Shown here in pieces: positions 2,939 through 5,227 of a DNA stretch of 64,000 nucleotides (positions within the stretch are counted from its first letter, which is position 1; each line of letters opens with the position of its first letter). Origin of the DNA: Bacteroidota bacterium (GTDB taxonomy: Bacteria > Bacteroidota > Bacteroidia > Bacteroidales > F082); the NCBI GenBank assembly GCA_009773165.1, contig WOUZ01000001.1, positions 558,001-622,000 of the forward strand, read 5' to 3'. The notes beneath the pieces were generated by a model. The model saw only the letters and a list, made by a program, of their open reading frames with translations. It was not told the DNA's origin and did no database searches. The position numbers and the translations under genes are program-made.

Positions 2939-3900
2939 AAAATCAGGCGCTTACCGAAACTCACTTCCATTTTCCAAGGCAAAAATCGTTTTATAAAGGA
3001 AAAGTCCGTGATGTGTATAATATCGAAGACACCTATTTGGTAATGATTGCATCCGACCGCATTTCGGCCTTTGATGTTGTTTTACCTAAAGGAATTCCTT
3101 ATAAAGGACAGGTGCTCAATCAGATAGCTTCTTACTTTTTAGATGCCACAGCAGATATCGTGCCTAATTGGAAAATCGCCAGTCCCGATCCTGTTGTCAC
3201 CATCGGAAAGCTGTGCAAACCATTCCCTGTCGAAATGGTGATCAGGGGCTATTTAACAGGAAGTTCATGGCGAACTTATAAAAAAGGCGAGCGGTTAGTA
3301 TGCGGTGTATCTGTTGCCGAAAACATGCGCGAACACCAGCGGTTTCCGTCACCTATCATAACCCCAAGTACCAAAGCTTCTGAAGGCCACGACGAAGATA
3401 TTTCAAAAGAGGATATTATTCGCAAAGGTCTCATTTCAGCCGAAGATTATGCTGTAATTGAGGCTTATACATACGCTTTGTTTAAACGAGGTACTGAAAT
3501 GGCGGCCAAACATGGTTTGATTTTAGTTGATACTAAATACGAATTTGGAAAGTTTGAAGATCAGATTTATCTCATCGACGAAATACATACACCCGATTCA
3601 TCACGTTATTTTATAGCTGAAAACTATCAGGAGCGTTTCGATAAAGGAGAAAACCAAAAGCAGCTTTCAAAAGAATTTGTTCGTGAATGGCTGATGCAAA
3701 ACGGTTTTCAGGGACAACATGGTCAAATGGTTCCCGAAATGTCAGAAGCTTATGTGCAAGAAGTTTCTGAGCGCTATATCGAACTTTTTGAAAAAGTTAC
3801 TGGTCAATCCTTCATCAAAGCAGATGAGGGCGATACGCTTAAACGTATTGAATCAAATATCTTAGGTTTTCTAAAAGAACAGGGTATTCAACCTGAATAA
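2935..3900 (+). CDS. purC: Phosphoribosylaminoimidazole-succinocarboxamide synthase (SAICAR synthetase)
   Basis: PurC joins CAIR and aspartate using ATP in purine biosynthesis. The 321-residue protein opens with the diagnostic KGKVRDVY block near residues 22-29, then [12 protein letters not shown] and KGQVLNQI, and later [11 protein letters not shown] and the [11 protein letters not shown] segment. The length matches the longer PurC form of Bacteroidota and eukaryotes rather than the 237-residue E. coli form. It overlaps phoH by 4 bases. No other purine gene is in the window, so purC is separated from the rest of the pathway here. Confidence 0.97.
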
Positions 3901-4219
3901 GCTGTTATAACCATATTATTTGTTTTCTTTTCACTACTGTATTGAAGCAGTTCATGTTCATTTGAACAGCTTTTAGTCAGCCTTTTGCTCCTACATTCTC
4001 ATTTTCAATACATTTCTTTCCTTCTTTAAAACTCTGTTCAATACAATTTCTGTTCATTGCCGAACAAAAGTGTGCGAATAATGAACAAGAATTTCCGATC
4101 AATCAATTCGAGTTATACATGTTATGTAATTGTATTTCTGTATGTTATAAACTTTGGCACGCAATTAGAATAAAGGATAGAAAATGAAATAAAATACAAA
4201 AAATTAAAAAAATACAACA
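3901..4219. other. Intergenic region before the repeat-protein gene
   Basis: This is 319 bases of AT-rich DNA with no supportable coding frame. It holds several GTTCA/GAACA words (for example near 3949-3975 and 4048-4087) and, at its right end, the TTTGGCACG box listed separately. No strong terminator for purC was recognised. Confidence 0.6.
4149..4170 (+). promoter_or_regulatory. Possible promoter with sigma-54-like -24 box, or degenerate -7 element
   Basis: TGGCACG at 4155-4161 exactly matches the -24 half of a sigma-54 promoter. At the expected -12 place (4166-4170) the sequence is TAGAA, three of five matches to TTGCA, and it lacks the C of the key GC. The overlapping AAACTTTG (4149-4156) is one mismatch from the Bacteroidota -7 box, with a TTG at 4130-4132. 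The two readings cannot be separated by eye. Either places a start of transcription 25-65 bases before the repeat-protein ATG. Confidence 0.35.
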
Positions 4220-4618
4220 ATGAAAACAAAAAGTATCCTCAGCGCAATTATCCTCAGCATTCTGATCGGAACCTCCGCAATTGCTGAAAATTTCAAAATG
4301 AAAGAAGAAGCTTATATTCCTGATATCCCGTTTAATACAACCGAGATTTTCAATGCTTACATGGCTTCTGATACCAATCTGTTCGTTCTTCAACTTGAAG
4401 AAGAAGCATATATCGACGACATCCCTTTTAACACACGTGCCATCGCTGCTCAACAATGCTGCGAAAAAGCTATGAAGCAAAATTTTGAAATGGAAGAAGA
4501 AGCTTATATCAACGACATTCCTTTCGATACCAAAAGTATTGCCTGGCAAGTACTTAGTCAGGAAAATCAGATGAGCTCCAAAACTACTTTCTATTATTTT
4601 GTAAGTACTACAAATTAA
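4220..4618 (+). CDS. Small secreted protein with three 32-residue EEAYI-DIPF repeats, unknown function
   Basis: The 132-residue protein starts with a signal peptide (about 1-22, ending in TSAIAE) and then carries three copies of a motif of the form FxMxEEAYIxDIPFxTxxI at residues 25-43, 55-75 and 89-107. The alanine of the motif falls at 31, 63 and 95, an exact 32-residue period. The linkers differ strongly while the motif is kept, which indicates selection on the motif. A CC pair occurs at 80-81. The C-terminus (about 112-132) is not repeated. The gene stands alone between a long promoter region and a strong terminator. I do not recognise a described family or function. The acidic motif and export signal suggest a periplasmic or surface role such as binding or assembly, which is inference only. 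Confidence 0.85.
   Translation: MKTKSILSAIILSILIGTSAIAENFKMKEEAYIPDIPFNTTEIFNAYMASDTNLFVLQLEEEAYIDDIPFNTRAIAAQQCCEKAMKQNFEMEEEAYINDIPFDTKSIAWQVLSQENQMSSKTTFYYFVSTTN
4292..4540 (+). repeat. Three in-frame 96-base coding repeats
   Basis: The motif core recurs at a 96-base interval; the codon for the invariant alanine begins at 4310, 4406 and 4502. Codons within the copies are not identical (GCT, GCA, GCT for that alanine), so the duplication is old and kept at the protein level. Confidence 0.85.
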
Positions 4619-4643
4619 ATCCCTTATCTACCATATATATCTC

Positions 4644-4673
4644 AAAAAACCGGCTCTTGGGCCGGTTTTTTTT
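4644..4673 (+). terminator. Rho-independent terminator of the repeat-protein gene
   Basis: An A-run, the stem CCGGC (4650-4654), a 6-base loop, GCCGG (4661-4665) and a run of eight Ts form a compact intrinsic terminator 26 bases after the stop codon. The flanking A and T runs extend the stem. Confidence 0.92.
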
Positions 4674-4844
4674 ATGAATGTTGTGAGCAAACATTTGGAA
4701 AAACATAATAATGCCTCATACAAACAATATGGGAATGACATGTAAATCTGCTGAAGCGTATCAGAATAAACGGCACATTTCATCAGGATCAACACATGAA
4801 AAAAGTGATTTCAGTTTTCACAATCAACTTTGCTAACTGTAATG

Positions 4845-4852
4845 TATCTTTG
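4845..4852 (+). promoter_or_regulatory. -7 element (TATCTTTG) before the cupin gene
   Basis: This is a perfect TAnnTTTG match ending 12 bases before the ATG at 4865. It lies inside the longer frame that begins at 4796, which argues that the downstream ATG is the true start. Confidence 0.5.
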
Positions 4853-4864
4853 AAGAAAAAAACC

Positions 4865-5227
4865 ATGTACGTCAAAGATTTAAACGATTGTCAGCCTTTT
4901 TTTGCAGGCGACAATACCTGGCTTCGGGAAATCCTTCACCCTGAAAAAGAACCACTTGAGCTGCGCTATAGTCTGGCACATGCAACTGTTGAACCTGGTT
5001 TAACTTCCTTTTTGCATAGTTTAAAAACTTCCGAGGTTTATTATATTCTTCAAGGACAAGGAATCATGCAAATTGATGATGAAAAAGTGGCTGTCTTTCA
5101 AGGGCAAACTATTTATATTCCTCCTCATGCCAAACAATGCATCACCAATAGTGGAAACGAAAATCTTGTTTTCCTGTGTATCGTTGACCCGGCCTGGAAA
5201 ATTGAAGACGAAGAAGTACTGGAATAA
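4865..5227 (+). CDS. Small cupin-domain protein
   Basis: From the ATG at 4865 this is a 120-residue single-domain cupin. The two beta-barrel motifs are visible as a TSEVYYILQGQG stretch with MQIDDE, and GQTIYIPPHAKQ with N-terminal HATVEPG. Such small cupins bind a metal and act as sugar-phosphate isomerases, dioxygenases or ligand sensors; the substrate is not identifiable. The motif 1 histidine pair of classical metal cupins is incomplete: an H occurs in FLHS and another in PPHA. An upstream frame extends to 4796 but would overlap the -7 element, so the shorter start is preferred. It stands alone on the plus strand. Confidence 0.8.
   Translation: MYVKDLNDCQPFFAGDNTWLREILHPEKEPLELRYSLAHATVEPGLTSFLHSLKTSEVYYILQGQGIMQIDDEKVAVFQGQTIYIPPHAKQCITNSGNENLVFLCIVDPAWKIEDEEVLE

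Follow-up and report, generated by a model that had tools for sequence, protein, structure and literature searches.

A family of acidic, secreted repeat proteins in Bacteroidales and its probable link to a sigma54-type pump and envelope-stress regulon

The 64,000-nucleotide stretch of DNA analyzed here (the window) carries at positions 4220–4618 of the + strand a gene of 132 codons and a stop that, by sequence comparison, is under selection and is a member of an unnamed family of small exported proteins, called "DIPF" in this work. Judged from sequence, the upstream region is the most informative feature of the locus, as a palindromic enhancer and a sigma54-type promoter appear to tie the gene to the regulon of an ABC pump. 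Taken as a whole, the reading that DIPF proteins are effectors of a pump and envelope-stress regulon is one that we consider moderately probable. All evidence comes from comparison of related genomes, those named being MAGs.

The open reading frame, found through the ORF list and its translation, lies exactly where the initial annotation had placed it, and the description given there, a small ORF with a signal peptide and three motifs 32 residues apart, was borne out. The N-terminus, read by eye, resembles a Sec signal peptide (MKTKSILSAIILSILIGTSAIA followed by EN); the likely leader covers residues 1–22 (4220–4285), ending between AIA and EN. The motif EEAYIxDIPFxT then occurs, by translation and family alignment, as EEAYIPDIPFNT (residues 29–40, 4304–4339), EEAYIDDIPFNT (residues 61–72, 4400–4435) and EEAYINDIPFDT (residues 93–104, 4496–4531), all on the + strand, with a spacing of exactly 32 + 32 residues that places the motif aspartates at residues 35, 67 and 99. 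Without its first 22 residues the protein has a pI of 4.10 and a charge of about −12. Over the 11 motif codons compared, the three repeat pairs within the gene show 5, 6 and 4 synonymous versus 1, 2 and 2 non-synonymous codon differences. The dN/dS ratio (NG86) is ~0.08 and ~0.11 in two close pairs of DIPF relatives, and 0.15 between the window gene and its nearest relative, where dS is saturated; dS was not computable in one pair and more distant pairs were saturated. Downstream, folding against shuffles revealed a terminator-like hairpin with a T run (4644–4671, + strand; −15.9 kcal/mol, z −3.6) that none of 200 shuffles equals, in agreement with the strong terminator claimed earlier; a simple consensus terminator scan detected none at the window gene. 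The hairpin precedes the next ORF, which is cupin-like by eye, and the neighbors of the gene, also named by eye, are housekeeping-like. The proposal that the gene is monocistronic finds support in a promoter and a terminator of its own, features of the sequence rather than of transcripts.

Homologues sharing both motif and period do exist. An 18-member profile, whose members were selected for at least three DIPF-like matches so that the invariance of those letters is partly by choice, gave matches at E≤0.001 in 62 of 173 genomes of the same taxonomic family, distributed over 13 of its 16 genera. The same profile matched 30 of 393 genomes sampled from the order and, among 395 sampled from the phylum, the source genome only. 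A scan of named genomes yielded 165 relatives, with 79 loci returned, from MAGs labeled Bacteroidales, Bacteroidetes, Marinilabiliales, Lentimicrobiaceae and Chlorobiota. The source genome contains a second copy, likewise with three repeats; several copies per genome occur elsewhere, and G020 has DIPF genes at six separate places. Conservation was read from 97 units of 35 proteins; the search pattern for these units was D[IVLM]P[FV], so that D and P are fixed by construction. Outside the pattern, E at −5 is kept in 95/97 units, T at +5 in 96/97, I or V at −2 in 97/97 and Y at −3 in 75/97. The earlier view that the linkers vary holds insofar as the motif is more conserved than the linker, but the linker retains I or V at +8 (90/97), A as the commonest residue at +9 (43/97) and F or Y at −10 (70/97). 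Motifs in the family are mostly 31–33 residues apart, with spacings of 25–30 in eleven cases, and repeat number is variable. After removal of 22 residues, 118 of 119 DIPF proteins have a pI of 5 or less, with a median charge of about −17.

DIPF loci cluster at two conserved chromosomal positions, the purC side (9 loci) and the rsmI/NUDIX side (15 loci each). An operon with neighbors was rejected as a clue to function, as these two positions and their housekeeping-like genes indicate none. In three genomes (L035:2059-7042, L036:9158-14144 and L046:1-3047) a DIPF gene is followed at 163–177 bp by an ABC ATPase gene and by a large downstream protein, which in L035 has a peptidase M1 domain. An origin in phages, plasmids or other mobile elements was rejected, as no relative was confirmed among 62 viral candidates and the plasmid search gave no match at E≤1e-3. 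A structured RNA was rejected in the same way, with no Rfam match across 3800–5000 of the window.

The initial annotation had stated that no described domain explains the protein, and this stands: no Pfam or NCBIfam model attains its cut-off for the window protein or for the DIPF members searched. Plant-type [2Fe-2S] ferredoxins need four cluster cysteines. The corresponding model, TIGR02008, scored 18.9 bits versus a cut-off of 81.15, with two cysteines available and one of 39 members matching, and the ferredoxin match through solved chains was weak and involved the wrong cysteines; both were rejected. Also rejected were a weak match to DUF7391 (Pfam) and other weak Pfam, PHROGs and NCBIfam matches, which fall under cut-offs where one exists and are scattered over members. 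AlphaFold gave weak models, with pTM 0.21 for the window protein (39 sequences, an alignment of chosen members rather than all) and 0.22 for a five-repeat relative (24 sequences). Both predict that a helix follows each DIPFxT and that the intervening segments are extended, and neither shows tertiary packing, a result with which folding on a partner may remain compatible. The initial reading is borne out in part, namely for the leader, the promoter and terminator, the lack of a domain above its cut-off, the stronger conservation of the motif and the homologues of like motif and period; the binding or self-assembly role suggested there is conjectural, and the unpacked models lend self-assembly no support.

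The long promoter region noted, but not read further, in the initial annotation contains a palindromic enhancer followed by a sigma54-type promoter. The promoter, TTGGCACGCAATTAG (4154–4168, + strand), lies at −65 from the ATG and has GG-N10-G spacing, with the −24 GG and the −12 G 10 bp apart; the C expected next to that G is not conserved, the base being A in the window gene and T, A or C in the family. Upstream activator site 1, the palindrome TGTTCATTGCCGAACA (4051–4066, + strand), agrees with the enhancer consensus at all 12 core positions and is a putative NtrC-type regulator site; from its start to the −24 TGG the distance is 104 bp. Site 2 (4071–4087, + strand), recognized by reading, is an imperfect palindrome, TGTGC-N7-GAACA; the family logo, too, has a second half-palindrome.

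The same architecture recurs in the family. The promoter set comprised 119 distinct proteins with at least two motifs, an ORF of at most 420 aa and an acceptable start; since DIPF members are related, all counts are of non-independent events. Upstream regions shorter than 120 nt were excluded from the 118-member box scan, those shorter than 200 nt or containing N from the enhancer scan, and those shorter than 250 nt or containing N from the matched comparison. TGGCA[CT] was present at −130 to −35 in 75 of 118 family upstream regions, and 71 of these 75 also have the G expected at −12. Against matched controls the count was 73/114 for DIPF versus 13/446 for neighboring genes, and the stricter TTGGCA[CT] at −90 to −35 was found in 56/114 versus 4/446. 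Compared with 200 shuffles, the latter box occurred in 56/115 regions, the shuffle mean being 0.6 and the maximum 4. Upstream of the sigma54 boxes lies an enhancer with the consensus TGTWCR-N4-YGWACA, usually with a second palindrome 21–22 bp on. At a score of at least 11/12 it was detected in 58/73 sigma54-type upstream regions versus 1/41 of the other class and 8/730 shuffles; lowering the threshold to 10/12 raised this to 71/73, but also admitted 81/730 shuffles. Box and enhancer occur together in 58/114 DIPF upstream regions versus 1/446 controls. The distance between them is nearly fixed: among the 71 scoring at least 10, the enhancer starts exactly 104 bp before the TGG in 38 and 101 to 105 bp before it in 61, the remaining starts being at 80, 91–94 and 114 bp apart from two far off that are probably chance. 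The DIPF paralogue of the source genome also has a sigma54 box and an enhancer, the latter with one mismatch.

Most of the 43 DIPF upstream regions without a sigma54 box carry two CCATTCACCGA-like copies, nearly always 21 bp apart. A direct repeat scoring at least 16 was found in 38/43 of these regions versus 1/75 of the sigma54 class and 10/2360 shuffles, and the 21-bp-period repeat in 37/114 DIPF upstream regions (one also with a sigma54 box) versus 1/446 controls. In the part of PMC6193735 drawn on here, LytTR sites lie immediately 5' of the −35 and consist of direct repeats whose spacers are mostly 12 bp long, and 9-bp repeats are tabulated; the 21-bp-period repeats fit this layout and are of LytTR type. 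The window gene does not belong to this class, as its upstream region has no direct repeat scoring at least 16. Three genomes (G017, G020 and G024) have DIPF paralogues of both promoter classes. The direct repeat is also found ahead of a LiaF-like/kinase/LytTR operon in the source genome. Among relatives, LiaF-LytTR operons have a repeat scoring at least 16 at 23 of 26 loci with an ORF (L191–L220 minus L216, L218 and two without an ORF), L204, whose start was mis-picked, being scored as a miss and L200 having its best repeat at 22 bp. Five of 114 DIPF upstream regions fail both promoter tests (L012, L069, L070, L109 and L147). The region of L012 shows a degenerate direct repeat by eye.

The source genome encodes one rpoN and seven strong activator genes, so that both the sigma factor and AAA+ activators are present. 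The exact enhancer palindrome occurs six times in its 4.38 Mb, the backwards control twice. Three of the six lie ahead of functional candidates: the window gene, a TolC-like gene, and a divergent promoter with an NtrC-type response regulator and kinase (G000:C13) on one side and HlyD-type adaptor, ABC ATPase and FtsX-type permease genes on the other. By its domains this operon, which adjoins its own kinase-regulator pair, encodes a HlyD-type adaptor, an ABC ATPase and a MacB_PCD/FtsX permease. The other three palindromes (C12:136663, C12:199288 and C15:153089), in or beside genes and with no sigma54 box on the fitting side, were rejected as enhancers and taken as chance. At both pump promoters of the source genome the −24/−12 box lies 101–102 bp from the enhancer start, and this spacing recurs in 13 of 14 ABC operons in other genomes, the last having 92; the adaptor gene heads seven of these 14 operons and the ATPase gene seven. 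The genome-wide search covered exact palindromes only and therefore missed the one-mismatch site of the paralogue, so the regulon may be larger.

Conservation of the enhancer at the regulator is consistent with this arrangement. It was present upstream of 28 of 30 regulator orthologues read, L251 and L258 being the exceptions (17/19 by text pattern, and 11/11 by direct reading of the loci that failed the pattern); the remaining six of the 36 orthologues lie in clusters where an enhancer separates the regulator gene from that of the adaptor. A regulator orthologue of at least 70% identity was found in 36 of 42 DIPF-bearing and none of six DIPF-lacking genomes (Fisher p 7.5e-5), in a set hand-chosen mostly for holding DIPF; six DIPF-bearing genomes have no such close orthologue. 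In G020, G017, G023, G009 and G036 a single cluster contains the LiaF-LytTR operon, the NtrC-type pair and an ABC operon encoding an ATPase and an FtsX-type permease, and therefore the two regulators apparently driving DIPF genes are linked. The pairing of regulator and enhancer, for which position and conservation argue, is presumptive; control of DIPF genes by these regulators is, on the sequence evidence, highly probable. As far as the excerpt of PMC12316311 goes, the sigma54 targets of Bacteroidia are enriched in antimicrobial-peptide-type ABC permeases and HSP90, a survey that agrees with the predicted pump regulon. DIPF is the part of this system without precedent among the literature matches listed: none of these concerns the motif, and four motif strings returned 0 papers.

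Other sigma54-like boxes were also observed. One at G000:C3:56354 (L166:1501-1552) precedes by 51 bp a gene that by eye is htpG-like (HSP90), which agrees with the HSP90 report in the excerpt of PMC12316311. At L178:1-6093 (G000:C1:60000-66500) a kinase and an NtrC-type regulator are followed by a sigma54-like box and, after it, by genes for a lipoprotein-like product and two L,D-transpeptidases of the YkuD type. This may be a second sigma54 regulon, concerned with the cell wall; a search at a score of at least 11 detected no DIPF enhancer in it. Nor was the enhancer found at that score at the lipoprotein-like genes of L179:1374-1736 and L180:1081-3126, which have sigma54-like boxes 43–45 bp upstream.

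These data have led us to propose a model that runs from occupancy of the sites and sensing of envelope stress to ligand and mechanism. The NtrC-type response regulator and its partner kinase (G000:C13) would bind the palindromes at 4051–4087, and the bound regulator would switch on sigma54 polymerase at 4154–4168. DIPF would then be made along with the ABC pump operon (HlyD-type adaptor, ATPase and MacB/FtsX-type permease) and the TolC-like outer-membrane factor, while in sister genera a LiaF/kinase/LytTR system would drive other paralogues through the 21-bp-period direct repeat. The Sec-exported, strongly acidic and flexible protein would be a non-pump target of a small envelope-stress and efflux regulon. 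Pump genes, regulator, outer-membrane factor and DIPF share one enhancer, which suggests the handling of periplasmic peptides or envelope-active compounds. In the periplasm each unit, an extended FxFEEAYIDDIPF segment and a helix starting at the Thr, might dock either the pump itself or one of its ligands, for which misfolded proteins and peptides of cationic or amphipathic character are candidates; we put this docking role forward tentatively. A more specific possibility, and a somewhat more doubtful one, is that this exported, multi-copy and repeat-based family, whose paralogues would have moved between sigma54/NtrC-type and LiaF/LytTR control, serves a MacAB-TolC-like system of Bacteroidales as its dedicated substrates or as carriers of substrate.

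Three alternatives concern the docking step only. DIPF could be cargo of the tripartite ABC pump, delivered by Sec to the periplasm and expelled, with the repeats serving as decoys, signals or peptide precursors. The enhancer is the same as that of the pump operons and its spacing nearly so, what is common being promoter architecture only; the multiplicity of DIPF genes, as at the six places in G020, fits as well, and the adaptor scores 213.7 bits against a darobactin-export adaptor model, under its cut-off of 450. According to the portion of PMC5985334 drawn on, MacAB-TolC exports Sec-delivered STII from the periplasm. However, the 31–33-residue spacing of most neighboring motif pairs and the helix pattern suit a structural repeat better than a precursor that is cleaved, inspection by eye showed no conserved processing site, and half of the 14 ABC operons lack the adaptor gene at their head; we consider this reading unlikely. 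Less likely still is a sensor or feedback subunit that binds peptide and releases or activates the kinase, like enterococcal LiaX, which according to the excerpt of PMC10269926 activates LiaFSR by binding daptomycin; apparent control of DIPF by a LiaF-kinase-LytTR system or an NtrC-type pair would suit such a role, but several paralogues of varied repeat number would be unusual for a stoichiometric sensor. We give equally little weight to a general chaperone of the periplasm that would resemble Spy, CpxP or ZraP in role though not in sequence. DIPF is small and secreted, with a stress-type promoter, and ZraP is controlled by sigma54 and ZraSR, but Pfam gave no match to the Spy/CpxP/ZraP families at E≤10 for the window protein or E≤0.1 for 18 members, AlphaFold predicts little fold, and the exact-match regulon of the source genome includes pump genes, not folding factors. 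Finally, a chance repeat in a non-coding or decaying ORF, in favor of which nothing was found, is negligible given the low dN/dS in close pairs, a motif conserved over many genomes and a conserved promoter.

An effector of the pump and envelope-stress regulon thus remains the preferred reading of DIPF. It would give an unnamed family of many uncultured Bacteroidales a testable role, with regulator, enhancer, promoter and pump all proposed from sequence, and one effector family shared out between two regulators that are not related, its enhancer at an almost constant distance, would offer a clean natural case of regulatory rewiring. If DIPF proteins were indeed substrates or carriers, Gram-negative bacteria would have in them a novel type of periplasmic effector or peptide trap.

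Parts of this system resemble known ones. In the sigma54 regulon of Bacteroidia (PMC12316311) antimicrobial-peptide-type ABC permeases and HSP90 are likewise under sigma54, and the portion of that source drawn on does not mention a DIPF-like family. MacAB-TolC and BceAB-type ABC systems, as excerpted from PMC5985334, have a comparable operon of adaptor, ATPase and MacB_PCD/FtsX permease beside a kinase-regulator pair; DIPF, in contrast, is not a pump part, and such a repeat-protein companion is not mentioned in that excerpt. In the LiaFSR-LiaX system of enterococci, from what the excerpt of PMC10269926 covers, a LiaF-type three-component system similarly governs a protein at the cell surface that has a link to antimicrobial peptides, whereas here the response regulator is of LytTR type, the window gene has a sigma54-type promoter, and the DIPF protein, small, acidic and built of repeats, matches no domain. 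The LytTR systems in the excerpted part of PMC6193735 share direct repeats of period 21 (9-bp units, most spacers being 12 bp), a position just upstream of the promoter, and autoregulation; here such repeats are absent before the window gene, a kinase and a response regulator come together with LiaF, and DIPF genes appear as further targets.
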